This document shows, piece after piece, positions 6,069 to 34,621 of a DNA stretch of 64,000 nucleotides. The notes beneath the pieces are model-generated. The model saw nothing but the letters and a program-made list of their open reading frames with translations. It had not been told where the DNA came from and did no database searches. Position 1 is the stretch's first letter. Every line of letters starts with the position of its first letter. The translations under genes were made by a program, and so were the position numbers. The DNA is from Pontibacter virosus (lineage in GTDB: Bacteria > Bacteroidota > Bacteroidia > Cytophagales > Hymenobacteraceae). The stretch lies in NCBI RefSeq assembly GCF_003096355.1, contig NZ_QEKI01000001.1, forward strand, positions 62,001-126,000. The letters run 5' to 3'.

Positions 6069-8213
6069 ATGAACCTCGACCCTCACTCTAATCAGAATAA
6101 TAGGCAGAGACACCACCATCACTCGCACCACGGGACACCTCAACGCCAGGAGGCCATGCAGCAAAAAGACCAGATAACGGAACGGCTGGAGGAGAAGACG
6201 CTGCACGGGCACGAGCACGCCATGCACGAAGACACCACCGGTCATCCACCGCACGGGGAGCACGGCCACGACCATCATCGCATGATGATCGCTGATTTTC
6301 GTAAAAGATTCTGGATATCGCTGGTGTTGTCTATCCCTGTGATCCTCCTGAGCCACATGGTGCAAAACATTCTGGGATATTCATTGCAGGTGCCGTATAG
6401 CCTACACATTTCTTTCATTCTTTCTTCCATCATCTACTTCTACGGCGGCTGGCCTTTCCTGACGGGGCTGGCCGAAGAAGTAAAGAAAAGCTCCCCGGGG
6501 ATGATGACCCTAATCGGCGTCGCCATCACAGTAGCTTACCTCTACAGTACTGCCATTGTGTTTGGGCTGGAGGGCATGGACTTCTTCTGGGAACTGGCCA
6601 CGCTGATCGTGATCATGTTGCTAGGGCACTGGATCGAGATGCGCTCGGTGCTCGGCGCCTCTAAGGCATTGGAGTTGCTGGTAAGCATGATGCCTGCCGA
6701 CGCCATGCTCATCAGGGATGGGGAAACCGTGCAGGTGCGGATCGAGGAGTTGCAGAAAGGCGACCTGATCCTGGTGAAGCCCGGCGAAAAGGTACCAGCC
6801 GATGGCGTGGTGGAAGACGGCGAAAGCTACCTCAACGAGAGTATGCTCACCGGCGAGAGCAAGCCGGTAAAAAAGAACAACAACGCCAAAGTGATCGGTG
6901 GATCCATTAACGGTAACGGGGCGCTACGGGTGCGGGTGGAATACACCGGCAAGGAAAGCTACCTCAACAAGGTGATTAAGCTGGTGCAGGACGCGCAGAA
7001 GACCAAATCGGAGACGCAGCGCTTGGCCGACCGCGCGGCCAAATGGCTCACCTACATTGCCCTCTTCGCCGGCTTTGGTACCCTGGCGGTTTGGCTGCTG
7101 CTGGGTCAGGAGTTTGCCTTTGCCCTAGAACGAATGGTAACGGTGATGGTGATCTCCTGTCCGCATGCGCTGGGGCTGGCGGTGCCTTTGGTCGTGGCGA
7201 TCTCCACGGCTGTCTCGGCCAACAACGGCCTGCTCATCCGCAACCGCACAGCATTCGAGAACTCCCGCCTCATCACCACCATCATCTTCGACAAGACCGG
7301 CACCCTCACCCAAGGCTCCCACGAGATAGCCTCGGTGGTCACATTCGACAAAGCTGTAGACAAGCAGGAAATGTTACGCTTAGCGGCTGGCGTGGAGCAG
7401 AACTCCGAGCACTTCATCTCGCAGAGCATACTCCGGAGAGTGAAAGAAGAAGGTATAGCGGTGCCTCCTTCCCAATCATTCAATTACCTGCCTGGCAAAG
7501 GACTCGAAGGTATGGTGGAGGGCAAAGATGTGAAAGTAGTGGGGCCCAACTACATCAAAGAATTTAACATACAAGTACCTTCAAGTGAGGCCGAAGAAGG
7601 CGTGGAAACGGTAGTCTATACCTTGGTTGACGGCCAGCCGGTGGGTTATATCACCATGCGCGACCAGATCCGCGAGGAGTCTGCCGAAGCCATACGGGTG
7701 CTGAAAGAGAACGGCATTAAAAACCTGCTGCTGACCGGCGACAACGAGCGGGTAGCCAAAAGTGTCAGCGACAAGCTGCAGATGGACGGCTACCTGGCCA
7801 ACGTACTGCCGCACCAGAAACAGGAAAAAGTAAAAGAGCTGCAGGACAAGGGCGAGTTTGTGGCCATGACGGGCGACGGTGTGAACGATGCCCCTGCCCT
7901 GGCCCAGGCCGATGTTGGGATTGCCGTCGGCTCCGGCACCGATGTGGCCGCCGAGACAGCCGACATCATCCTGGTGAACAGTAACCCGCAGGACATCGCC
8001 TCGCTCATCCTCTTCGGCAAGGCCACCTATCGCAAAATGATCCAGAATCTGATCTGGGCTACCGGCTACAACGTCATCGCGCTGCCCCTGGCTGCAGGTG
8101 TGCTATACCAGCAAGGTATTATGGTTTCACCAGCAGTGGGTGCCGCCCTAATGAGCCTAAGCACGGTGATTGTAGCCATCAACGCGCAGTTACTCAGGAG
8201 ACAGATAAGATAG
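6069..8213 (+). CDS. Copper-exporting P1B-type ATPase, CPH (CopB-like) class
   Basis: 714 residues. An unusually His-rich cytoplasmic N-terminus (residues 1-72, e.g. HHHHSHHG, HPPHGEHGHDHH) replaces the usual HMA domains. The core then has the transmembrane segments and these P-type signatures: TGES at 261-264 (actuator), S-C364-P-H366 in the membrane (ion path), D408-KTGT (phosphorylated Asp), and TGDGVND at 601-607. The CPH motif marks the P1B-3 (CopB) group, which exports Cu(I)/Cu(II), sometimes Ag(I), from the cytoplasm at the cost of ATP. Base composition is richer in G+C than the surrounding island genes. A DUF305 lipoprotein gene follows after 96 bases on the same strand and probably works with it in the periplasm. 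Confidence 0.95.
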   Translation: MNLDPHSNQNNRQRHHHHSHHGTPQRQEAMQQKDQITERLEEKTLHGHEHAMHEDTTGHPPHGEHGHDHHRMMIADFRKRFWISLVLSIPVILLSHMVQNILGYSLQVPYSLHISFILSSIIYFYGGWPFLTGLAEEVKKSSPGMMTLIGVAITVAYLYSTAIVFGLEGMDFFWELATLIVIMLLGHWIEMRSVLGASKALELLVSMMPADAMLIRDGETVQVRIEELQKGDLILVKPGEKVPADGVVEDGESYLNESMLTGESKPVKKNNNAKVIGGSINGNGALRVRVEYTGKESYLNKVIKLVQDAQKTKSETQRLADRAAKWLTYIALFAGFGTLAVWLLLGQEFAFALERMVTVMVISCPHALGLAVPLVVAISTAVSANNGLLIRNRTAFENSRLITTIIFDKTGTLTQGSHEIASVVTFDKAVDKQEMLRLAAGVEQNSEHFISQSILRRVKEEGIAVPPSQSFNYLPGKGLEGMVEGKDVKVVGPNYIKEFNIQVPSSEAEEGVETVVYTLVDGQPVGYITMRDQIREESAEAIRVLKENGIKNLLLTGDNERVAKSVSDKLQMDGYLANVLPHQKQEKVKELQDKGEFVAMTGDGVNDAPALAQADVGIAVGSGTDVAAETADIILVNSNPQDIASLILFGKATYRKMIQNLIWATGYNVIALPLAAGVLYQQGIMVSPAVGAALMSLSTVIVAINAQLLRRQIR

Positions 8214-9367: not shown

Positions 9368-11944
9368 TTAGAACCTTACTGTCAGGCCACCGCCTGCCCC
9401 GAAGCGATTGTCGTAGCTGCCCATGAGCGAGAAAGCTTTTGACATGAGGTACTCCAGCCCTACGTTCCAAGTCGTTTCGCTTCGGTAGTTGTCTACTCTG
9501 CCCGTGCCTTCCTCCGGAGCGAAATCGTTTACCCAGCCGAAGTCCGCCTGGTACTCATACTCCCCGAACAGGAAGGTGCGCGGAAAAATCAGCACCTCGC
9601 GGCTTAGGCTGACCTGTGGTCGCAGTTTGTTGTCAAGGCGCACATCGAGGTTGAACATGTAGGGCGTGAGGTATCGGATACCGGCAATGGCTGTCGTTTC
9701 CACCTTCTCCATGCTGTCCTCCTTCTCGTTCTCCACGTTCACACCGACAAATACGTTCAGGTAATCGTACAGGAACCTGCCGTAGGTAAACTCTGCCTCC
9801 AGGTTCTTGTTCCAGCCATACTCTGTCGACAAGGTAAACTGGTTGCGCAAATTCGACAGCACCATCCTTGTCTCACCCATATGCGAGGCAGCGTCCACGG
9901 CACCCCAGAAAAAGAAATGGTTGCTTTTGTTCGTCAGGATGCGGAGCGGGTAGCCTTTCAGCCGTGGGTCGCGGATCGTATCATAGCTGAAGATGCGGGC
10001 CATACCGGCATCGAGATGGTAGAGGATGTGGCAATGGAAAAACCAGTCGCCGTACTCGTTGGCGTCAAACTCGATCACCACCTTCTGCATCGGCGCCACG
10101 TTCACCGTGTGCTTTAGCGGCGAGTACTCCCCATGCTCGTTTATTACCCGGAAAAAGTGCCCGTGCAGGTGCATGGGGTGGTGCATCATGGTCAGGTTGT
10201 TGAGCGTGATGCGAGCCACCTCGCCCTGCCTGATCTTGATCTTATCCGCTTCCTTCAGGGGCACACCGTTCATACTCCAGATGTAGCGCACCATGTTCCC
10301 TGTTAGGTTCAGCAGTATCTCCCTGGCAGGCTTTCCTTCGGCAAAGTCAGTTGGCTCGGGGGCTTTCAGGTAGTCATAGTTGTACTCCGCAAACATGTCC
10401 ATGCCGGGCATTCCCTCATGCTGCATCCCTATCCCCTTGCTGGCCTCCGGCTGATTCATCTGCGGCTTATCAGCAGCTTTATCATGCTTGCTATGGTCCA
10501 TTTTAGAATGATCCGTTTCCATGGCTGCGGCGGTGTCTTTTGGCATTTCCTTGCCGTGCATGGTTTGGTCCATTTTGGTGTGATCCATACCCTTTGCAGC
10601 AGTGGTGTCTTTTGCCATCTGCATCTCCCTTTTCTGCTCTTCCATCTGGTGGTTCATTTTGGAATGATCCATCTTTTCAGCACCCGCCGTATCCTGCTTC
10701 ATCTCCATGCCATGCGGGTGCATGTTCTGCTCTTCATGCTGTGGCTTGCCTTCTTTACCTTCCCCGTGCTCCGTATGGGTGCTGTCTCCCCCCATCTGCA
10801 TCTCACCGTCCATCTGCATGCCCCATTCCTTCATCATCTCATGAGGCTCCTCTTCGCTGGGGTTGAACTTGGTGGCCGGTGCACCCATCTTCATATCCAT
10901 GGCTGCCATCTGTTGCATCATGGCTATCTTATCAGGACGGGGCACATCGGGTGCAGGTATAACAGGTCCCTGGCCAAGCAGAGTAGAAGAATAGCCGGAG
11001 CCGTCCTGCGCGGTGGCTTTCATTTCCAGCTTCCCGTTCTGCGGAATGGTTACGATGAAGTCATACGTCTCGGCTACCGCGATAAAGGTCTTGTCGCGCC
11101 TGACGGGTACCACGTCCGGTCCATCGGCGGCGACCAGCAGTGGCGTGTCACCGCCAAAGGTCAGCCAGAACTGGCTGGAGGCGGCAGCGTTGATAACCCG
11201 CAGCCTTATCTTCTGCCCCGGCTTGAACTCCGGGTACTCCCGGACAGGCTGTCCGTTGCTCAGGAAAGCCGGATAATAGACATCGGCAATGTCGGCACCC
11301 TCCATGCGTTGCTTCCAGAAGTTGAGCTGCGCTCCCAGTGCTCCCCTGGCAATGACCCTGTTGAGCGGCACCGAGGTTCCCTTCTGGACATCGTATATTT
11401 CCAGCCCCCGCTTCAGCGTCTTCAGCACGTTTGTCGGCTTCTCGTGGGTCCAGTCCGAAAGCACCACCACCAGGTCGAAGTCATAGTCCAACTTTTGCTC
11501 CCTGTCCTCCACCACAATCGAGCCGTACACCCCCGACTGCTCCTGCAGGCCGGTATGCGAGTGATACCAGTAGGTACCGGTGTGCTTCATCTCAAACTCA
11601 TACCTGAAGGTGGTGCCCGGCGCAACGGGCGGCGTGGTCAGGTAAGGCACCCCGTCAAAAAAGTTCGGCAGCAGGATGCCGTGCCAATGGATAGAGGTCT
11701 CCTCATCCATGTTGTTGGTCACGTTTATCACCGCGTAGTCGCCCACCTGAAACCGAAGGGTCGGGCCTGGTATGGTGCCGTTGATGGTCATGCCCATGCT
11801 TTTCTTCCCGGCTATCTTCACCTGCTCCTGGTCAATGGTAATATTATAAACAACAGTATCGGGTTGTGCTGTAGTCTCATTGGGGAAGTATAAAAGAAGT
11901 GCGGTTATGATTAGAATAAGTATGTTGACGTGTGGATTTTTCAT
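9368..11944 (-). CDS. Multicopper oxidase (CopA type) fused to an outer-membrane barrel (CopB type)
   Basis: 858 residues. A signal peptide (1-27) precedes a three-cupredoxin multicopper oxidase with the copper ligands H86-W-H88, H128-S-H130, H589-P-M-H592-L-H594 and H637-C638-H639 ... H643 ... M648. Between domains two and three (about 342-520) lies a long Met/His-rich insert with recurring units such as MDHSKM and KDTAAA, like the copper-loading loops of PcoA/CopA. After residue 670 the chain continues into an about 190-residue beta-rich domain (TRMVLSNLRNQFTLSTEY, GAGGGLTVRF at the end) that looks like an outer-membrane barrel of the PcoB/CopB kind. The reaction would be oxidation of Cu(I) to Cu(II), probably at the outer membrane. 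Fusion of the two normally separate proteins is the notable feature. Confidence 0.9.
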   Translation of the reverse strand: MKNPHVNILILIITALLLYFPNETTAQPDTVVYNITIDQEQVKIAGKKSMGMTINGTIPGPTLRFQVGDYAVINVTNNMDEETSIHWHGILLPNFFDGVPYLTTPPVAPGTTFRYEFEMKHTGTYWYHSHTGLQEQSGVYGSIVVEDREQKLDYDFDLVVVLSDWTHEKPTNVLKTLKRGLEIYDVQKGTSVPLNRVIARGALGAQLNFWKQRMEGADIADVYYPAFLSNGQPVREYPEFKPGQKIRLRVINAAASSQFWLTFGGDTPLLVAADGPDVVPVRRDKTFIAVAETYDFIVTIPQNGKLEMKATAQDGSGYSSTLLGQGPVIPAPDVPRPDKIAMMQQMAAMDMKMGAPATKFNPSEEEPHEMMKEWGMQMDGEMQMGGDSTHTEHGEGKEGKPQHEEQNMHPHGMEMKQDTAGAEKMDHSKMNHQMEEQKREMQMAKDTTAAKGMDHTKMDQTMHGKEMPKDTAAAMETDHSKMDHSKHDKAADKPQMNQPEASKGIGMQHEGMPGMDMFAEYNYDYLKAPEPTDFAEGKPAREILLNLTGNMVRYIWSMNGVPLKEADKIKIRQGEVARITLNNLTMMHHPMHLHGHFFRVINEHGEYSPLKHTVNVAPMQKVVIEFDANEYGDWFFHCHILYHLDAGMARIFSYDTIRDPRLKGYPLRILTNKSNHFFFWGAVDAASHMGETRMVLSNLRNQFTLSTEYGWNKNLEAEFTYGRFLYDYLNVFVGVNVENEKEDSMEKVETTAIAGIRYLTPYMFNLDVRLDNKLRPQVSLSREVLIFPRTFLFGEYEYQADFGWVNDFAPEEGTGRVDNYRSETTWNVGLEYLMSKAFSLMGSYDNRFGAGGGLTVRF

Positions 11945-12447
11945 AATGTTTATCTCCTATATATTTGTCTTAAACTATTTTAGTACAAGGTTTTCGGAAC
12001 CTCATAATTATCAAGCGGTCAGGTCAACTTATACTCTTATACTTATTGGACTTACCACATGTTCTGAATCAAAGAAAATGTGGCTGAGGCTACATTCAAG
12101 GCTCTACGTCTATAGTAGTACAGTAGTACAGATACAGAACCTCACATAAGGCCTCCTAAGCCTGTCTACCCGTTTATATGAAAAGAAAAATTTTACTCTG
12201 TAAACTACCAATACTTGGTTCTGGGAGTTCTGCTTAATATGTTGACTATAATGGATCTGATCAAGATAACCTTTCTCCTCCAAAGACGGCGTCAGGATAA
12301 CTAGTAGAGTCTCCAAGGTACCTGAGAACTGTTTTCTGTTGCTTGGGTAAGAACGGCAAATCGAGGTAACTTCGCGACACAAGCCCTACTGTGCTGATCT
12401 TCATGCTCCTGGTACGGATCACCGGACTTTGGAGGCACTTGAGTTAC
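11945..12447. other. Intergenic region, no gene seen
   Basis: About 500 bases between the starts/ends of two minus-strand genes. Short open frames here have no domain and no coding character. The 80 bases next to 11944 should contain the promoter of the multicopper oxidase gene; a purine-rich AGGAGAT lies about 8 bases before its ATG (minus strand) and may act as a ribosome binding site. Confidence 0.5.
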
Positions 12448-13896
12448 TCAATAATTGTTAATGCAGTCAGACATGGTCTCTTTAATGGACTGCGGGTGAC
12501 ATTGTGATTCCACCTCTGCTTCCTTTTCCAGATTCATCCATGTACCCTTAGCAAACTTATAGGCCAAGACCCCTGCACGGGTCACAATGTCAATACCAAT
12601 GGCGATCCAGACACCAATAAGGCCCCAGCCCAGGGTGATTCCAAGGTAGTAGACCAGAACGGTGCGGATGGCCCACATACCAGCCGCCGTCAGGTACATG
12701 GGGAACTTCGTATTATTGGCAGCCTGGTACGCGCCTGTAAGCGTTAATAGGGCTGCCAGAAAAGGCTGAAACGCACCCGAAACCTTCAGGGCGTTCCCTA
12801 TTTTAGAGATTACCTCCGGGTCTTCGGAGAACAGACTGCCTGCCCACTCTCCCAGGAAGAAGAGCAGTAAGCCCAGCACTCCCATAATGCCTACAGCCAT
12901 CCAGGCCCCTATTTTTGTAAAAGAAATCGCCTCCTCTATTCTTCCTGCACCTATCTGCTGTCCGGCCAGTATAGTAACTGCTGTGGCAAAGCCATAACCT
13001 GCCATATAGGAGATTACCTCCACATTACCGGCAATCTGATGGGCGGCGAAGACGTTGGTTCCCAGCGAAACGATGAACCCGAAGTAGACGATCTGCCCTG
13101 CCCGCATAATGAGCACCTCACCGGCCGCAGGGCTGCCTAATGTAGCAAGCTCCTTCTGATGGCCCCAGTCAACAGACCAGAAGTCCTTCCGGAAGGCCAG
13201 CACCTCCGATCGCTGGATGTAGTAGACCAACAGAAGGGTCCCAAGTACACGGGAAGCAACTGTAGCCAAAGCAGCACCAGTAACTCCCATTTCAGGAAAA
13301 ATCCAGAAACCGAAAATAAGGGCATAGCCCAGGAGCGCATGGAAAATGTTGATGATAATGCTGACTTTCATGGGGGCCCGTGTATTACCTGAGCCCCGTA
13401 AATTGGCACTAAGCGCAAACATGAGCGACATAAATACGGATGGGATACCCACAACCCGGAAATAGTCCTCCCCAATATCCAGCACCTGCTCTTCCAGACC
13501 CATGAGCGTGAGCAGGGGGCGTGCAAAAAATAGCGTTACGATACCTGTTAGTATGCCAAAAAGGATGGAGAGGATGATGGCCTGCTGCGCGATATGCCGG
13601 GCCCTTTCGACTTGGTTCGCTCCCAAGGCATTTGCCACCCTTACGTTTGCTGCCACCCCGATAGCCATAAAGACGGCAAAGTAGATAGCCAGTACAGCAT
13701 TAGTGGCCCCTATGGCAGAAACCTCCGCTAGGCCTATCTTTGAGACGAAATAGACATCCACAAAGCCAATGAATGTCTGAAAGAAGTTCTCTACTACTGC
13801 CGGAAAAGCAAGGAGCAGGACAATCTTCATTTTATCGCGAAGAGTGGCAGTAACCGGTATGTCTACTTGCTCTTTGTTAGCTTCCATAGGCAACAT
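12448..13896 (-). CDS. MATE-family multidrug/cation efflux transporter
   Basis: 482 residues with about twelve hydrophobic helices. The first helices read IVLLLAFPAVVENFFQTFIG and FVDVYFVSKIGLAEVSAIGA, the standard MatE opening, and the second half repeats the pattern (AAGEVLIMRAGQIVYFGFIV). Members exchange Na+ or H+ for organic cations and drugs across the inner membrane. Substrate cannot be told from sequence. It lies 30 bases downstream of the His-rich protein gene at 13927-14625 on the same strand, so the two are probably one operon. Start: ATG at 13896; a second in-frame ATG is three codons later. Confidence 0.92.
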   Translation of the reverse strand: MLPMEANKEQVDIPVTATLRDKMKIVLLLAFPAVVENFFQTFIGFVDVYFVSKIGLAEVSAIGATNAVLAIYFAVFMAIGVAANVRVANALGANQVERARHIAQQAIILSILFGILTGIVTLFFARPLLTLMGLEEQVLDIGEDYFRVVGIPSVFMSLMFALSANLRGSGNTRAPMKVSIIINIFHALLGYALIFGFWIFPEMGVTGAALATVASRVLGTLLLVYYIQRSEVLAFRKDFWSVDWGHQKELATLGSPAAGEVLIMRAGQIVYFGFIVSLGTNVFAAHQIAGNVEVISYMAGYGFATAVTILAGQQIGAGRIEEAISFTKIGAWMAVGIMGVLGLLLFFLGEWAGSLFSEDPEVISKIGNALKVSGAFQPFLAALLTLTGAYQAANNTKFPMYLTAAGMWAIRTVLVYYLGITLGWGLIGVWIAIGIDIVTRAGVLAYKFAKGTWMNLEKEAEVESQCHPQSIKETMSDCINNY

Positions 13897-13926
13897 TGCG
13901 GTTTCTAAAGATTTATCCTGTTGCGT

Positions 13927-14625
13927 CTAGTGATGGTGCCCATGAAGCCCCTGCCCAGGAAGCTCAGCTACTTGCACAACATAATCCAGGGTATACAGTA
14001 GCCCGTTCAGCAGGAATTGAATCCACACCCGGTATAATCCCGTGGCAGTAAAAGCAGAGTGCAGCACCAACACCTCCTCGTGCACCATGGGGTGGACATG
14101 AAGGTATTCTTTTGTATCCACATTGATCATGACTACATGGGCCTTGGCACCCAGAAAATCACCTAATAAAGAGACCGGTATGGCAGCCTCACCCTGTTTC
14201 ATAGTAACGCGTATGGCATTAAGGTCCTGCACATCCAGTTGCACGCTTATATTGTCAACCGTTTTACTGAGCACATCCTGCTGGTAGCGCTGCACGTCTC
14301 TGCTATCACCGGCAACGTCCACCGATTTTCGGATAACAGCCGGTGCCGTATTCAGGGGCTTTACATCGCAGTAAAGCAGGAATTTGCCCCCAAAGGGAAA
14401 TATGAAGTCAACAGAGTATTCCTTGCCTGCCTTTTCCGGGTGCTCGTGGGCAAAGAAAGAAAGGTCTTCTGATACTATGATGAGGTGAATGTCCTTGGTA
14501 TGTACCTCTTCCAGTACAAGGGGAACACCGGAGGCCTCCTGGTTAACAGGTGTGAGAAGTAGTGTCACCTTTTCCTGTGCGCTTATAGCGGAAGGCTGAG
14601 AGCTTATTAAAACGTCAAACATCAA
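13927..14625 (-). CDS. YtkA/FixH-like protein with HxH motifs, unknown function
   Basis: 232 residues without a signal peptide. Two similar beta-sandwich-like halves are visible: the first has KDIHLIIVSEDLSFFAHEHP and a following YSVDFIFPFGGKFLLYCD; the second has AHVVMINVDTKEYLHVHPMV. The chain ends in GHHH. The pattern His-x-His-Pro after a hydrophobic strand is typical of YtkA-like and related proteins linked to copper handling. The paired HEHP and HVHP motifs could make a metal site. Directly upstream of the MATE gene (30-base gap), it may be a partner or a cytoplasmic metal-binding protein. The role is not known. Confidence 0.6.
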   Translation of the reverse strand: MMFDVLISSQPSAISAQEKVTLLLTPVNQEASGVPLVLEEVHTKDIHLIIVSEDLSFFAHEHPEKAGKEYSVDFIFPFGGKFLLYCDVKPLNTAPAVIRKSVDVAGDSRDVQRYQQDVLSKTVDNISVQLDVQDLNAIRVTMKQGEAAIPVSLLGDFLGAKAHVVMINVDTKEYLHVHPMVHEEVLVLHSAFTATGLYRVWIQFLLNGLLYTLDYVVQVAELPGQGLHGHHH

Positions 14626-14848: not shown

Positions 14849-15116
14849 GTGCTTGGTTATACCTTTCCGTGCACCCTTCTGTTTTATATATTCATGAGTT
14901 GTTTTTATATAAATTAGCTTTTAGCACTAGCTTGAGTCCCTCTAAAACAGGCAACATCTACCCTGACAGTGATTCCAAGTCTAAACTTGCCGGGCTTCCT
15001 GACTCTGCCAGCCCTATGCTTTTTAACTCCTTATTTGTTATTGCGTTTAGAAGAACGTGCTAACTATTCGATAGTGTCTGCTTGGCTTTAGATGGTAAGC
15101 ACTCCTAATGGTAAGC
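14849..15116. repeat. Copy 1 of a repeated upstream region, with deletion junction
   Basis: 14849-15060 aligns along its whole length with 18905-19116: shared strings include GCTTGGTTATACC, GTTTTATATATTC and TTATTGCGTTTAGAAGAACG. In the other copy this region leads into the ion-channel gene. Here it jumps, at about 15061-15085, straight to sequence matching 20300-20320 (GGTAAGCACTCCTAA), so the channel gene has been deleted. A strong direct sign of segmental duplication followed by loss. Confidence 0.85.
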
Positions 15117-15151
15117 AAGTCTAAAAAATCCCAACAATTCCGACTATCGAT

Positions 15152-15391
15152 TTTCAAGTCCTTGCCACCGATGCCTACAACCCATATGATTTCAGCCTTG
15201 AATCCTGCTTGCTGCACCACATTTTCGATCCTGTGGGGATCAAGGTCTGTACCGGATACGCTTAACAGCTTGTCTTTACGTTCCGTATCAACGTGCCAGC
15301 GGCTTATACTTTCTTCTTTATCCAAGTAAGAAGCCACCTTTGTCAAGGCCTACTCGCTTTCGATGTTAGTTTTAAACTTGATTATTTCTAT
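15152..15391 (-). pseudogene. Broken copy of the HMA-like protein gene at 20349
   Basis: Translated on the minus strand from 15391, the sequence matches the intact 79-residue protein encoded at 20349-20588 almost residue for residue (EIIKFKTNIESE, then ALTKVASYLDKEESISRW, LSVSGTDLDPHRIENVVQQA, GIGGKDL). It carries three lesions: the start codon is ATA instead of ATG, codon 14 is a TAG stop, and the normal stop after GKDL has become AAA, so the frame runs on to 15047. Expression of a full product is therefore unlikely. A TTG at 15346 could start a shortened protein. Confidence 0.85.
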
Positions 15392-17672: not shown

Positions 17673-18383
17673 CTACATATTATGATGTTTGGTAGGTATA
17701 CCGTGTTCATTCAGGAAAGCTGCCAGTTCCATTATTTCCTGCGACTGCTCTTCAATGATTAATCTGGCTTCTTCTAATGCCATTGCATCATCTCCCCACT
17801 TCAGCTCAGTTTCTGACATGGCTATCGCTCCCTGGTGGTGGCAGATCATGAGCTGGGCAAAGTCAACATCCGGATCAGGCGTATCCTTTACAGAACGCAT
17901 GCAGTGCATCATAGCCATCATGTCTTCCCGCATCTCCATCATAAACATCTTGCACTCTTCTTTTGAGAGCGGCTCTGCGCCCGGGTGTGAAGCTAAAAAA
18001 GCCTGCAATCTTTCTTTGCTTTCCATGTTGCCTATCTTCGTTTTCTCGGCCAACGCAAGCGCTTCCGGCTCATGCCCATATTGCAGTTCCAAGTCGGCCA
18101 TTTTAATTCCCATCTCGTGGTGCATGATCATCATGCTGGCAAAATCGATGTCGGGGTCGCAGGTCATCTCCATCTGGTTCATCATCTTCATCATGGAGTT
18201 GATGATATGCTGCATTTCCTTGTCAAAGGCTTTGTCATCTTCCCAGTAAGGACCCTTCGCAGCTTGCTCTGCAGTAGCACTTAATGGGGTTACAACATCC
18301 TGGTCCTTTTCGCAGCTACTGAACATAAAGACAGCAACTACCATAAGAGCAAAGCTCTTGATACTGATAAAACTAGTTTTCAT
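17673..18383 (-). CDS. DUF305 lipoprotein (intact copy of a duplicated gene)
   Basis: 236 residues. The leader ends in FMFSSC (C24), so it is a lipoprotein. Two DUF305 units follow: DIDFASMMIMHHEMGIKMADLEL and DVDFAQLMICHHQGAIAMSETEL, both with the HH and Met pattern of copper-binding DUF305 domains; linking helices are Met-rich (MFMMEMREDMMAMMHCM). A mature periplasmic or outer-membrane copper buffer is the likely role. A near-identical but frameshifted copy lies at 23412-24120. It is downstream of the four-helix copper protein gene (same strand, separated by a terminator), an order that is repeated in both copies. Confidence 0.88.
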   Translation of the reverse strand: MKTSFISIKSFALMVVAVFMFSSCEKDQDVVTPLSATAEQAAKGPYWEDDKAFDKEMQHIINSMMKMMNQMEMTCDPDIDFASMMIMHHEMGIKMADLELQYGHEPEALALAEKTKIGNMESKERLQAFLASHPGAEPLSKEECKMFMMEMREDMMAMMHCMRSVKDTPDPDVDFAQLMICHHQGAIAMSETELKWGDDAMALEEARLIIEEQSQEIMELAAFLNEHGIPTKHHNM

Positions 18384-18568: not shown

Positions 18569-18883
18569 CTACGCCTGCTGGCAAGCCTGCTCGCAACGGC
18601 GACAAGCCTCAGCGCACGTACGGCAGTGCTCCATGTGCGAATGCTTCTCACACTCTGCACCACATTCTCTACACACTCTGGCACACAGATCCAGCACTTC
18701 TCTGGAGAAGGTAGAATCCCGTGATACATAGTCCAGTGCCATTTTACAGATGGCTGCGCAATCCAAGTCAAGTCGGATGCAGCGTTCCATCATTTTCACA
18801 TCATCTTCCTGCAGGCAGGAAACTGCACAGTAGTTACAGGCTGCTGCACACTCAGCTAATGCGGTTATTAAGTCTTTATTCAT
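18569..18883 (-). CDS. Four-helix-bundle copper-storage protein (Csp-like)
   Basis: 104 residues with 16 cysteines placed along four helices: AECAAACNYCAVSC, RCIRLDLDCAAIC, LCARVCRECGAEC and HCRTCAEACRRCEQAC. This is the pattern of Csp proteins (PF03860-type), four-helix bundles whose core cysteines hold many Cu(I) ions. There is no signal peptide, so it should be the cytosolic (Csp3-like) kind, storing or buffering copper that escapes the ATPase. An almost identical paralogue lies at 24300-24614 and a decayed one near 14764. The gene is divergent from the ion-channel gene at 19124, the two being separated by the repeated 18905-19116 region. Confidence 0.93.
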   Translation of the reverse strand: MNKDLITALAECAAACNYCAVSCLQEDDVKMMERCIRLDLDCAAICKMALDYVSRDSTFSREVLDLCARVCRECGAECEKHSHMEHCRTCAEACRRCEQACQQA

Positions 18884-18904
18884 AATTATCTGGATTTTAA
18901 TGAA

Positions 18905-19116
18905 ACATATGCTTGGTTATACCCATCCGAAGCCCCTTCCGTTTTATATATTCTTGAACTATAATTATATATTTTTGGTGGCGGTACTACCTTAGGTGCT
19001 CTTTAAAACAGGTAAAATCAGCCCTAGCAGTGGCTGCAAGCTTACATTTGCCAGGGTCTGTCACCTCTATGCTGTTTAACTCCCTACCTGTTATTGCGTT
19101 TAGAAGAACGTGCTAA
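18905..19116. promoter_or_regulatory. Repeated divergent upstream region (copy 2, intact setting)
   Basis: This region separates the minus-strand copper-storage gene from the plus-strand channel gene. It matches 14849-15060 along its length, and its part next to the storage gene also matches 24652-24718. The best-kept blocks across all three are CTTGGTTATACC (short inverted GGT/ACC ends) and GTTTTATATATTC. Conservation of the non-coding bases, especially in all three copies next to the storage gene, suggests a promoter/operator shared by these genes. The regulator is unknown; the AraC-HMA protein encoded at 1722 is one candidate. Confidence 0.55.
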
Positions 19117-19123
19117 CGATGCG

Positions 19124-20146
19124 ATGTACTTTATGAATTTGCTGTATCTCTTCTTGGGAGCTCTTATTTTTACCTTAATTGCACTGGATATCATTAAGAC
19201 CACCTTTTCTTCTAGCGGAGGCGGTCGGATTACGGAATTAGTGTCTAGGGCGGTGTGGAAGACTTTCTTCTCTGTCTCAGGTAAAGAGGGGAAATCAAAA
19301 TTGCTTGAGTATGCGGGACCATCTATCCTTACCTGCACGCTTCTGACCTGGGTCCTTGGGCTATGGGCAGGACTGTTCCTGCTGCTGCTCTCTGATCCAG
19401 ACTCTGTTATAAACAGCACTACCTTATCCAGTGCCAGCCCTTTGGAGAAGCTCTACTATGCCGGCTTTACACTTTCCACTTTGGGAGTGGGAGACTATGT
19501 GGCATCGAATGATGTGTGGCGGATTATTACGAGTGTCACAGCTTTCTCAGGCTTAGCTTTCATCACTGCCTCCCTCACCTATTTTGTACAGGTACTATCT
19601 GCCGTAGGCTTGCAGAGCAAGCTCAGTCTTTACATTAACAGCATGGGTAAAACGCCACAGCAGATTCTGGTTAACAGCTGGGACGGGAAAGGCTTCTCCT
19701 CCTTTTTTGATAATGTGTCAGATATTTGCCAGATGCTCATGCAGCATACTGTTAACCACCATTCCTTTCCTGTGATTCATTACTTTCATAACTGTCAACC
19801 AAAGTTGTCTGTCGCGCCCGCCGTTGTGCTGCTGGATGAGGCACATCAGCTCCTGGAGCAAGCCGTTTCGCAGGATGTTATAAAGAGCGAAGTTAAAATG
19901 ACAATGCTACAAACGGCACTGGATTCGTATCTGGAGATGGTGAAAGGAAGTTTCCTGAAAAACACTTCTCCCCAGGAAGCTGCTCCTATACCTGATATAG
20001 GGAAAATGGAGGAGAAAGGAGTTCCAATTAAAAACAGGGAAGAAGTAGAACAAACTTTTAAACAGAACCTGAAGGACCGCCGGAGACTGCTATCTTCCCT
20101 TTTGGAAATGGACGGCTGGCCCTGGAAGGAAGTGTATCAATCGTAA
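19124..20146 (+). CDS. Two-helix-pore ion channel-like membrane protein
   Basis: 340 residues from the ATG at 19124 (a TTG at 19094 is also in frame but lies in the repeated non-coding region). Layout: an N-terminal helix (LLYLFLGALIFTLIALDII), a second at about 66-90, then a pore loop AGFTLSTLGVGDYVAS with the filter sequence T119-L-G-V-G-D124, close to the TVGYGD of potassium channels, and a third helix at 131-160. A soluble C-terminal domain of about 180 residues follows, with a His cluster (HTVNHHSFPVIHYFHNC). This is an Ion_trans_2-type protein. A K+ or other cation channel is likely; a link to copper is inferred only from its place in the duplicated copper module. Confidence 0.75.
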   Translation: MYFMNLLYLFLGALIFTLIALDIIKTTFSSSGGGRITELVSRAVWKTFFSVSGKEGKSKLLEYAGPSILTCTLLTWVLGLWAGLFLLLLSDPDSVINSTTLSSASPLEKLYYAGFTLSTLGVGDYVASNDVWRIITSVTAFSGLAFITASLTYFVQVLSAVGLQSKLSLYINSMGKTPQQILVNSWDGKGFSSFFDNVSDICQMLMQHTVNHHSFPVIHYFHNCQPKLSVAPAVVLLDEAHQLLEQAVSQDVIKSEVKMTMLQTALDSYLEMVKGSFLKNTSPQEAAPIPDIGKMEEKGVPIKNREEVEQTFKQNLKDRRRLLSSLLEMDGWPWKEVYQS

Positions 20147-20348
20147 GTCGAGCACTTTCACAACCTTGTGTAAGATTTTAGATTTTAGATGGAGGTGCAC
20201 TATTATTTATCTCTGCTTGGCTGAATTTAGGTTCCCGGATTAATTTAACACTAGTATCTCTTTCTATCAGCTGGGGTTTTACTAAAATCATTTTAGTGTA
20301 TGCCTGGTTTTAAATGGTAAGCACTCCTAACAGTTTCTGCTATCGGCT

Positions 20349-20588
20349 TTACAAGTCCTTGCCACCGATGCCTATAACCCGGATGATTTCAGCTTTGAAT
20401 CCTGCTTCCTGCTCCACATTTTCAATCCTTTGGGGATCAAGATCTGTACCGGAGACACTTAAAATATTTTCTGTGCTTCCAGTTTCCAGCTTCCACCTGC
20501 TGATACTTTCTTCTTTGTCCGGGTAAGGCGCTACCCTGGATATAGCTTCCTCATTCTCCACATTGGTTTTGAACTTGATTACTTCCAT
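20349..20588 (-). CDS. HMA-like ferredoxin-fold protein without cysteines
   Basis: 79 residues (MEVIKFKTNVENEEAISRV ... GIGGKDL). The beta-alpha-beta pattern KFKTNV / EEAISRVAPYPD / ESISRWKLE / NILSVSGTDLDPQRI / AEIIRVIGIG is that of heavy-metal-associated domain proteins common in Bacteroidota. However there is no cysteine at all, so the usual CxxC metal site is missing. It may bind a partner rather than a metal or use other ligands. It is convergent with the channel gene (202 bases apart). A broken copy at 15152-15391 keeps the same neighbouring sequence. Confidence 0.8.
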   Translation of the reverse strand: MEVIKFKTNVENEEAISRVAPYPDKEESISRWKLETGSTENILSVSGTDLDPQRIENVEQEAGFKAEIIRVIGIGGKDL

Positions 20589-23411: not shown

Positions 23412-24120
23412 CTACATGTTATGGTGCTTGGTCGGTATACCGTGCTCATTTAAGAATGCGGCTAGCTCCATTATTTCCTGCGCTTGCTCTTCAATGATCA
23501 TTTCAGCCTCCTCCAAGGCCATTTCATCATCCCCCCACTTCAATTCTGTGTTTGACATGGCAAGGGCTCCTTCGTGATGACAGATCATCAGCTGGGCAAA
23601 ATCAACATCCGGATCAGGTGTGTCCATTACAGAACGCATGCAGTGCATCATAGCCATCATGTCCTCTCGCATCTCCATCATAAACATCTTGCACTCCTCC
23701 TTCGAGAGTGGTTCCGCCCCTGGATGCGATGCCAGCAATGCTTCAAGACGTACTTTACTTTCCATGTTGCCTATCTTCGTTTTCTCGGCCAGTTCCAGTG
23801 CCTCGGGCTCATGCCCATACTGGAGTTCCAGGTCGGCCATTTTAATACCCATTTCGTGGTGCATGATCATCATGTTGGCAAAATCAATGTCGGGGTCGCA
23901 GGTCATCTCCATCTGGTTCATCATCTTCATCATGGAGTTGATGATCTGCTGCATTTCCTTGTCAAATGCTTTGTCGCCCCCCAGTAAGGACCTTTCGTCG
24001 CTTTCTCTGCGCTGGTACTTAACGGGCTAACAACATCTTGGTCATTTTCGCAGCTGCTGAACACAAAGACGGCAATTAGCATAAGAGCAAAGCTTCTGAT
24101 ACTGATAAAATTTTTTTCAT
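23412..24120 (-). pseudogene. Frameshifted duplicate of the DUF305 lipoprotein gene
   Basis: Compared with the intact copy at 17673-18383, this copy matches from the signal sequence (FALMLIAVFVFSSCENDQD) to the identical C-terminus (FLNEHGIPTKHHNM). Two single-base losses break it: one in an A run right after the start codon (ATG at 24118-24120 followed by seven A; eight are needed to keep frame), and one in a run of six G on the coding strand (plus-strand C run 23977-23982; seven would restore frame). The last 180 residues remain open from an internal ATG at 23954. Both lesions are in homopolymers, so slippage, phase variation or sequencing error must all be considered. Confidence 0.85.
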
Positions 24121-24216
24121 AGATTATGTGGTTAAAAAATGTGACCAAAATTCACTTACTAAGCCTCTTAATTTTATGGGGACTTCTATCGGTGCACTGT
24201 AATTCACGTCCACGCC

Positions 24217-24264
24217 AAAAAACACCCTGACCGCTCTAGCAGGTATAGAACAATCAGGGTGTTT
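24217..24264 (-). terminator. Rho-independent terminator after the second copper-storage gene
   Basis: Stem 24221-24230 with 24254-24263, followed on the minus strand by six T (A run 24217-24222). It corresponds to the hairpin at 18486-18543; the lost base pair is missing from both arms, as expected of a selected structure. Confidence 0.88.
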
Positions 24265-24299
24265 CTTAGGTCTTGCATTTGACCAACTTGTAATAACAA

Positions 24300-24614
24300 C
24301 TACGCCTGCTGGCAAGCCTGCTCGCAACGACGGCAAGCCTCAGCGCACATACGGCAGTGCTCCATGTGCGAATGCTTTTCACATTCCGCACCGCACTCGC
24401 GACACACTCTGGCGCACAGGTCCAGCACGTCTCGCTTCATAGTCGAATCACGGGATACATAATCCAGCGCCATTTTACAGATAGCGGCACAGTCCAGATC
24501 GAGGCGGATACAGCGCTCCATCATTTTCACATCGTCTTCCTGCAGACAGGAGACAGCACAGTAGTTACAGGCTGCGGCACATTCTGCCAACACTGAAACT
24601 AGTTCTCTATTCAT
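24300..24614 (-). CDS. Four-helix-bundle copper-storage protein (Csp-like), second copy
   Basis: 104 residues from the ATG at 24614 (an ATG four codons upstream, 24626, is also possible). The sequence differs from the copy at 18569 at about ten positions, mostly near the N-terminus and in the turn DSTMKRDV, while all 16 cysteines are kept. The role is the same: cytosolic Cu(I) binding by core cysteines of a four-helix bundle. Conservation of every cysteine, while the adjacent DUF305 copy has decayed, suggests this copy is still under selection. It is followed by a matching terminator and then by the broken DUF305 gene. Confidence 0.92.
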   Translation of the reverse strand: MNRELVSVLAECAAACNYCAVSCLQEDDVKMMERCIRLDLDCAAICKMALDYVSRDSTMKRDVLDLCARVCRECGAECEKHSHMEHCRMCAEACRRCEQACQQA

Positions 24615-24651
24615 CGTTATGTTCATAGTTTGTTTTGTTTGGTTATAAGTC

Positions 24652-24718
24652 CTTAGTTATACCCATCCCTTACCGTGATAGTTTTATACATTCCCAGCTG
24701 ATTTTTATATAATTATGA
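24652..24718. promoter_or_regulatory. Upstream region of the second copper-storage gene (repeat copy 3)
   Basis: The strings CTTAGTTATACCCATCC and GTTTTATACATTC here match the blocks at 18910-18953 and 14850-14893. Similarity ends near 24720. Only the part nearest the copper-storage gene is kept, which suggests that this part drives that gene. Confidence 0.5.
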
Positions 24719-25432: not shown

Positions 25433-26740
25433 TCACTCGCTAATCATATTAAATGCTGTTAACCGTGCAGCGTACTGCTTCTTCACGTCGTTTTCAAAGC
25501 TATCCAAGTAGCTTTCGGTCGTCTTCAGGTTAGAGTGCCCAAGGGATTCAGATATAAGCTCTATCGGTGCCCCTGCTCGCTTGAGGACTGTAGAGAAGGA
25601 ATGCCGGGCCGTGTACGTGCTTATATTCTTTTCAATGCCAACCGCGGAGGCAACACGCTTGATGTACTTGTTTATAGTCTTGGTGGCATGCTGAATCTTT
25701 GCCCGTTCTCTTTCCGCAGACAACCCTGGTTCAAGCAAGGGGAACACATAATCTTCACTGTAAGCGGGTTTATTACCCCATCTCTCGATGATCTCATCAA
25801 TTTCCTGCGTCCGCATGGCCGTAATGACCTTGATATTCTGGCGGCTGGTCCGCTCCGTCTTGGCCCTGACAAAGGTGATCCTCTCCTGGTCAAGCTGCTT
25901 GTACTTCAGACGGGCGATGTCCTTCACGTTTATCCCGTTGCACAGGTAGGAGAAGATCCACAGGTCCCGCGCACGCCCTTCGTTCTCGGTGGCAGGCTTA
26001 TAGGAGAATATCTTTTCAATGTCTGCCAGCGTCAGGGCTTTCTTCACATTCCGGCCGGAGGGTATCTGGTACTTTCTCTTGCCGAACGGGTAGAGGTCGG
26101 CGTTCACCTCCCCTGCCGCGATGGCGTTGTTGTAGATGGCGCGAAGCGCCCGCAGGTAGATGCCTATGGTGGTGATCGAGTGGCCGTGCTGAAGCATCCA
26201 TTTCTCGTACCCCATCAGGAAATCAACAGTTATAGCGGCATAAGCCAGAGGCTTGCGTTTCTTCAGCAGGTTTTCCCTCTTCTCGGTTGCTTTAGCTCTA
26301 GATAAGCCCTTATTTCTGGTAAGGGGTTCTTTCTGAATAAAGGATAGCAAGGAGAGGCTGGCGCTCTCGTAGCTGCTGGCCGTGCCTACCCTGCCTTCCT
26401 CAACCAGTCTTGTGACTTGCTGCTCAAATGCTGTAAAGACATCGTTCTTAACTGCAGTGTTCAGGTACTTCTTCTCGAACTGCTCAAAAGTGAAGGTTTC
26501 AAGGTTACGGATGATGCCTATAGCCTTCTGCTCTATTGCCTGAAAAGCTATCTGAAGCTCTTTGTACTTTCCTTTCGGCTTTTCCGCTTGAACCTTAAAG
26601 AATTCTGCCTCGCTCAAAGAGTAGCTCGTATTATAGTATTTGCGCTGTCTTTGGAAGGTGAGCCTCAACCTTACCGGGAATGAGCCATCTTTCAGAGCCC
26701 TTCTGGTATCCAGCATGACGGAAGTAAGTACGGGTATCAT
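25433..26740 (-). CDS. Tyrosine recombinase / integrase of the island
   Basis: 435 residues from the ATG at 26740 (VLTSVMLDTRRALKDGSFPV is the usual start of Bacteroidota integrases; a longer frame from 26779 overlaps an inverted repeat). It has an N-terminal arm-binding domain, a SAM-like core-binding domain at about 95-220, and a C-terminal catalytic domain with KTERTSR (Lys), ARHSFSTVL (Arg), SLGHSNLKTTESYLDSF (His and the nucleophile Tyr). The first catalytic Arg region reads CNGINVKDIARLKY, as in integrases of conjugative elements that lack the standard Arg there. Its 5' end lies 154 bases from a tRNA-Arg fragment, so it most likely inserted this island. Confidence 0.9.
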   Translation of the reverse strand: MIPVLTSVMLDTRRALKDGSFPVRLRLTFQRQRKYYNTSYSLSEAEFFKVQAEKPKGKYKELQIAFQAIEQKAIGIIRNLETFTFEQFEKKYLNTAVKNDVFTAFEQQVTRLVEEGRVGTASSYESASLSLLSFIQKEPLTRNKGLSRAKATEKRENLLKKRKPLAYAAITVDFLMGYEKWMLQHGHSITTIGIYLRALRAIYNNAIAAGEVNADLYPFGKRKYQIPSGRNVKKALTLADIEKIFSYKPATENEGRARDLWIFSYLCNGINVKDIARLKYKQLDQERITFVRAKTERTSRQNIKVITAMRTQEIDEIIERWGNKPAYSEDYVFPLLEPGLSAERERAKIQHATKTINKYIKRVASAVGIEKNISTYTARHSFSTVLKRAGAPIELISESLGHSNLKTTESYLDSFENDVKKQYAARLTAFNMISE

Positions 26741-26741
26741 G

Positions 26742-26780
26742 TGTGTGCAAATTATTTCCTGTACACACAATTTGCACACA
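26742..26780. promoter_or_regulatory. Inverted repeat just upstream of the integrase start
   Basis: A perfect 12-bp inverted repeat: TGTGTGCAAATT at 26742-26753 and AATTTGCACACA at 26769-26780, 15 bases between. Its position immediately before the ATG at 26740 suggests an operator or a recombinase/accessory-factor site. The related string ACAATTTGCA occurs at 26767-26776 and again at 26992-27001, on the other side of the tRNA fragment. Confidence 0.6.
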
Positions 26781-34565: not shown

Positions 34566-34621
34566 CTCCAAACAACAAGAGCCGAAGCATGGGACCATGC
34601 TTCGGCTCTTGTTGTTTGGAG
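34566..34621. repeat. Perfect 27-bp inverted repeat after the beta-galactosidase gene
   Basis: Bases 34566-34592 are exactly complementary to 34595-34621, with only two bases between (effective hairpin loop of at least four). It starts 13 bases after the beta-galactosidase stop codon. No T run follows on either side, so it is not a standard terminator, though it could end or protect transcripts in both directions. Confidence 0.85.

Follow-up and report, generated by a model that had tools for sequence, protein, structure and literature searches.

A predicted K+-superfamily channel encoded beside copper-storage and copper-export genes in Pontibacter virosus, other bacteria and haloarchaea

The window analyzed here, a 64,000-nt stretch of the P. 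virosus genome (contig NZ_QEKI01000001.1, positions 62,001 to 126,000), contains a gene for a putative ion channel that is transcribed divergently from a gene for a predicted copper-storage protein (Csp). We read this channel as a component of copper-handling loci and not as an accidental neighbor, because it is inherited beside Csp, has a common control region with it, and belongs to a family whose members in Bacteroidota, one alphaproteobacterium, and haloarchaea lie next to genes for copper P-type ATPases, Csp, multicopper oxidases or azurins. The channel would be a tetrameric, copper-induced member of the K+ channel superfamily gated via its cytosolic domain; with the copper role deduced from its neighbors, we give this reading a probability of roughly 0.45. 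The sequence-only reading had described three ORFs here (a Csp, a channel with the filter TLGVGD, and an HMA-like protein without Cys), all of which were found at or near where it had placed them. Along the window, the features discussed are:

1722–2309, (+), HMA-AraC type regulator of the same island (Pfam HTH_18 and HMA)
6069–8213, (+), copper-translocating P-type ATPase with a CPH motif, CopB type (TIGR01511, 3e-177)
14850–15072, (+), relic of the Csp-channel intergenic region (74% match), with the channel gene mostly deleted
15155–15391, (−), older copy of the HMA-like gene (70% match), with an in-frame stop
17673–18383, (−), DUF305 lipoprotein-like gene adjoining csp (Pfam DUF305, 6e-30)
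18569–18883, (−), csp, predicted cytosolic copper-storage protein of the Csp3 type, 104 aa, 16 Cys
18917–18948, (−), Csp box TATAAAAC-N17-GGTATAA, 33 nt upstream of the csp ATG, within the Csp-channel intergenic region
19077–19103, (+), promoter-like channel start element TAACY-N15-CGTTTAG, just upstream of the channel ATG
19124–20146, (+), channel, 340 aa (N-terminal helix, slide helix, M1-P-M2, and cytosolic domain)
19478–19495, (+), selectivity filter TLGVGD (T119–D124; family filter T-x-G-[V/N/I/M]-G-D)
19610–20143, (+), C-terminal cytosolic domain, residues 163–340 (178 residues), with C202, H208, H212, H213, P216, H219, and H222
20349–20588, (−), Cys-less HMA-like protein, 79 aa, convergent with the channel; optional neighbor
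23412–24626, (−), second copy of the DUF305 and csp block

The csp product matched Pfam DUF326 (2e-11) and, in a phmmer search, solved cytosolic Csp3 chains (5e-20); its N-terminus, MNKDLITALAECAAAC, is by inspection without a hydrophobic leader. Like the Csp3 proteins already known, as are CopB systems (PMC5171941, PMC6747150), it is a four-helix, Cys-rich sequence with 16 Cys and no signal peptide, and by these sequence features it is a cytosolic Csp3-type copper-storage protein, for which Cu(I) binding is predicted; its gene adjoins an ion channel gene. In the duplicated block, the second csp (24300–24626) encodes a 91% identical protein and has its own Csp box (24657–24688). The same 25 kb also holds a multicopper oxidase gene, the two DUF305 genes adjoining the Csp copies, and genes for a Mn catalase and a DsbA/thioredoxin-fold protein. 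The CopB-type ATPase is a recurrent neighbor of the channel, and homologues of the HMA-AraC regulator adjoin channels in other genera. Window and relatives have the neighbors expected of copper islands (CopB-type ATPase, multicopper oxidase, Csp, and regulator), but the window island includes in addition a dedicated ion channel, whose gene has a conserved start element of its own. A tyrosine-recombinase-like ORF (25433–26779, minus strand) flanks the island and fits mobility. Elsewhere in the window, a 56-nt near-perfect palindrome (34566–34621) lies between two genes.

Conserved elements were identified on both sides of the Csp-channel intergenic region. The Csp box, which is 32 bp in the window and has the general form TATAAAAC-N16/17-GGTATAA, lies 30–49 nt before the csp ATG; 29 exact matches were found in 50 genomes, as compared to none for the reversed control. 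These matches were located at csp genes (16), at channels or relics without csp (7), 1.3 kb from a channel (1), and elsewhere (5), and the box is kept beside channels that lost Csp. On the channel side, AACY-N16/17-CGTTT precedes the conserved MN start by 50–58 nt in 27 of 31 distinct Pontibacter/Botryobacter upstream regions. The AAC/CGT spacing of this element resembles that of ECF promoters; TAACY-N15/16-CGTTTAG was nevertheless no commoner genome-wide than its reversed control, so a genome-wide (ECF) regulon was rejected and the element is best regarded as promoter-like and channel-specific. Short intergenic boxes are conserved even between channels that are 60–70% identical. To judge from these conserved elements, Csp and the channel have a common intergenic control region.

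The relic bears on the earlier claim that the three genes had travelled together in an older copy, which stood in part: the intergenic region, the HMA-like gene with its stop, and a weak channel fragment were recognized, but no Csp gene was, and no csp remnant was found at the relic (14850–15391). The relic retains both a Csp box (14857–14888) and a channel start element (15024–15050), suggesting that the order Csp-channel-HMA probably once existed there. Intact homologues of the older HMA-like copy are present in two related genomes. The weak channel fragment (12325–12441, plus strand), which corresponds to residues 56–94 at 41% identity and contains one stop, is located downstream of a MATE gene, apart from the other relic.

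A survey of 50 Pontibacter genomes identified 33 channels at least 58% identical to the window channel (the window clade); a conserved paralogue clade in the same genomes (23 channels, 33–37% identity) provided an internal control. A divergent, adjacent Csp (<2 kb) was present at nearly constant spacing in 19 of the 33 window-clade channels, as compared to none of the 23 paralogues, confirming the co-occurrence that the sequence-only reading had proposed to look for among channel homologues. Within wider limits, Csp was found <10 kb from 25/33 window-clade channels and CopB <12 kb from 24/33, with 0/23 paralogues in both cases. Relatedness among the species and the recent transfer of some blocks make these counts non-independent; close relatives share large blocks at 97–100% identity, indicating recent transfer. 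Mapped on a tree (a quick one, with labels assigned by hand), Csp adjacency nevertheless requires at least seven changes. Several other neighbors were observed in these surveys. A gene with HxHP motifs and no Pfam match (13927–14625, minus strand, in the window; positions 13560–14354 of locus L125) is the divergent channel neighbor in P. vulgaris and FD36; a distant, weakly YtkA-like relative adjoins CopB and the channel in Natrinema salsiterrestre. The paralogue clade at 40% identity adjoins an ArsR-type regulator and an arsenite-methyltransferase-like gene in several Pontibacter (four loci, around positions 11100–12400), and three loci contain CusB-like heavy-metal efflux genes and a DUF3347-like gene upstream of the channel.

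The association extends beyond the genus. Members of the channel family were found in genome contigs of Rufibacter, Algoriphagus, Christiangramia, Cesiribacter, Pseudomonas/Stutzerimonas, Bacillota, and haloarchaea, and channels only about 30% identical still adjoin Csp or copper P-type ATPases, in differing gene orders, in one alphaproteobacterium and several haloarchaea. Christiangramia aestuarii presents the row HMA-AraC, channel, Csp, P-type ATPase, while a plasmid of the alphaproteobacterium Indioceanicola profundi carries the same set as the window (DUF305, P-type ATPase, Csp, channel, and Mn catalase) with a channel that is 31% identical. Among haloarchaea, Csp lies about 140 nt upstream of the channel in Halorubrum xinjiangense; the P-type ATPase lies some 20–50 nt upstream in Halomontanus, Haloterrigena, and Natrinema pellirubrum, the Halomontanus order being Csp...P-type ATPase-channel with about 20 nt between the last two; and in Halorussus, Halobaculum, and Natrinema zhouii the channel is followed directly by a copper P-type ATPase. 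As descriptive counts, 9 of 20 non-Pontibacter plasmid homologues inspected had a P-type ATPase or Csp gene within 5 kb, and 14 of 20 had a P-type ATPase, Csp, multicopper oxidase, azurin/cupredoxin, or HMA gene within that distance; copper genes were absent near the remaining 6/20. Members without copper context include a haloarchaeal topoisomerase-linked group, the Stutzerimonas group, and some Bacillota. The Pseudomonas/Stutzerimonas channel (nine loci), 47–57% identical and outside copper context, probably reflects an old interphylum transfer. A small SHOCT-domain gene is located just downstream of the channel in many haloarchaea, with five plasmid loci as examples, and is possibly a second conserved partner.

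The HMA-like protein had been proposed as the partner of the channel and as part of a heritable three-gene unit. It has no Pfam match by itself; its homology to HMA domains is established through Cys-bearing relatives with CGGC or CGSC found near copper genes in Rufibacter and Cesiribacter, since the Rufibacter homologue matches Pfam HMA (4e-7) and the same profile recovers the Cys-bearing proteins. It thus resembles CopZ/HMA metallochaperones in homology, but differs from them in lacking the CxxC metal-binding motif, as it has no Cys, in having a conserved C-terminal extension, and in often being unlinked to copper genes; the Cys-less subfamily is itself conserved. In Rufibacter and at about ten Pontibacter loci, the gene and Csp both occur ≤10 kb from the channel. 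Only a minority of window-clade channels have it as a neighbor; in other genera it mostly stands apart from the channel and from any copper genes. An obligate partnership was therefore rejected, and the protein is a frequent yet dispensable neighbor. For this reason the three-gene unit is only partly supported: Csp and the channel, which recur together beyond the genus and have the common control region, hold up as a heritable unit, and the HMA-like gene does not hold up as its third obligate part.

The channel ORF spans 19094–20146 on the plus strand; its start was revised from TTG 19094 to ATG 19124 because homologues begin there. The protein matched Pfam Ion_trans_2 (4e-10), and its profile matched Kv4.2, NaK, and K2P pores at around 1e-5. 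It contains the M1-pore helix-filter-M2 module of the K+ channel pore superfamily. The full-length AlphaFold2 model (pLDDT 93.4, pTM 0.88) places an N-terminal helix at residues 6–28, an amphipathic helix at 35–51, M1 at 59–89, a pore helix at 106–119, and M2 at 130–174, followed by a helical C-terminal domain; where the earlier description had a two-helix-pore channel, the model has three membrane helices plus a pore helix. The modelled pore aligned with KirBac-type channels with Z 9.8 and rmsd 2.3 over 100 residues. While the slide helix, M1, pore helix, filter, and M2 are in common with KirBac and NaK channels, the window channel has an extra N-terminal helix, a C-terminal domain that is all-helical and has no clear counterpart in the PDB, and the filter TLGVGD in place of their TxGYGD. 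This filter departs from canonical TxG[Y/F]GD; in 79 relatives the filter is mostly T-x-G-[V/N/I/M]-G-D, with the usual Tyr in only one. Because the usual Tyr/Phe is missing, K+ selectivity is not assured; from sequence and model together, the protein is probably a monovalent-cation channel, with K+ the probable ion and both gating and selectivity predicted.

Modelled alone, the C-terminal cytosolic domain is again all-helical (pLDDT 90.0). In the PDB fold search, the best hit (Z 6.9) was within the noise level of the tool; no clear match, to a Kir immunoglobulin-like or RCK gating domain or otherwise, was obtained, which by itself does not prove a new fold. The domain carries a family-wide motif, H-x3-P-x2-H, in which H212 and P216 are invariant and H219 is nearly so. 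C202 and H208 are both present in 31/31 members of the copper-linked Bacteroidota clade to which the window channel belongs; C202 and usually H213 mark this clade, and H208 occurs also in some other relatives. Arg or Ser takes the place of C202 in the Pseudomonas/Stutzerimonas subclade, where copper context is absent. Copper sensing by C202 and the His residues is nonetheless a guess, because H-x3-P-x2-H is equally conserved in members without copper neighbors and copper-linked haloarchaeal channels lack C202. Cys202 as a copper ligand for the whole family was rejected on the latter ground.

A mechanism can be proposed in which the channel would be made when copper rises, or under copper or redox stress, and would assemble as a tetrameric monovalent-cation channel of the K+ channel superfamily. 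Copper, or thiol oxidation driven by it, may act on the cytosolic helical domain to open or close the pore, in the window clade possibly through a cluster of Cys202, His208, His212, His213, His219, and His222. The resulting K+ flux could reset the membrane potential or compensate for the charge that the electrogenic Cu+ ATPase carries across; Csp would meanwhile buffer cytosolic Cu(I), and the Cys-less HMA-like protein would be an optional accessory. That the family amounts to an unrecognized electrical arm of prokaryotic copper homeostasis, a copper- or redox-gated set of cation channels in bacteria and archaea made with storage and export proteins and controlling K+ flux and membrane potential, is a more ambitious proposal that we regard as speculative and rather unlikely.

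Against a copper-specific reading stands the nature of the loci, many of which are multi-stress or plasmid-borne islands that co-inherit unrelated genes. The channel may accordingly serve general envelope or oxidative stress and be retained in mobile multi-stress islands in which copper genes just happen to be frequent; we consider this a real rival with a serious chance of being correct. It is favored by neighbors such as Mn catalase, DUF305, universal stress proteins, and ArsR/ArsM-like genes, by the plasmid location in P. akesuensis and many haloarchaea, and by members located at topoisomerase VI loci or next to antiporters without copper genes. It accounts less well for direct adjacency to Csp or a Cu ATPase, seen in several arrangements and in both bacteria and archaea, or for the common Csp box and the complete lack of Csp beside the 23 paralogues of the same genomes. 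A further possibility, that adjacency reflects nothing more than common descent of linked genes on Pontibacter plasmids, without functional meaning, draws on the nearly identical blocks recently transferred among close relatives, but is very improbable given that the arrangement recurs in different orders at about 30% identity in Alphaproteobacteria and haloarchaea and that the short intergenic boxes are kept between well-diverged channels.

The sequence-only reading had also raised the possibility that the channel itself passes a metal ion. Uptake or release of Cu+, Ag+, or another divalent through the pore would fit the non-canonical filter found across the family (T-x-G-[V/N/I]-G-D) and the adjacent metal transport genes; however, no Cys, Met, or His was found in or next to the filter of the window channel, which disfavors copper passage, and in both sequence and fold the pore module matches K+/Na+ channels. 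Carbonyl-lined filters favor alkali ions, which also counts against a metal-ion pore. We judge such a pore improbable, copper permeation being the least likely of the functional readings, and retain the reading of the channel as a K+-superfamily component of copper-handling loci.

Described copper systems store, chaperone, oxidize, or export the metal. In the open-access literature, we found no paper joining Csp or a copper ATPase to an ion channel; this is weak evidence because subscription journals were mostly outside the search. An ion channel gene neighbor is likewise unmentioned in one paper on Csp3 that was checked. From the recurrence of relatives of the Csp-channel pair in distant bacteria and archaea, it seems that cells facing copper also produce a dedicated ion channel, the function of which is apparently undescribed. 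If so, detoxification of the metal would be coupled to membrane potential and K+ balance by a dedicated channel encoded alongside storage and export genes. The protein also offers a testable candidate for channel gating by metal or redox state, through a domain of unfamiliar type.
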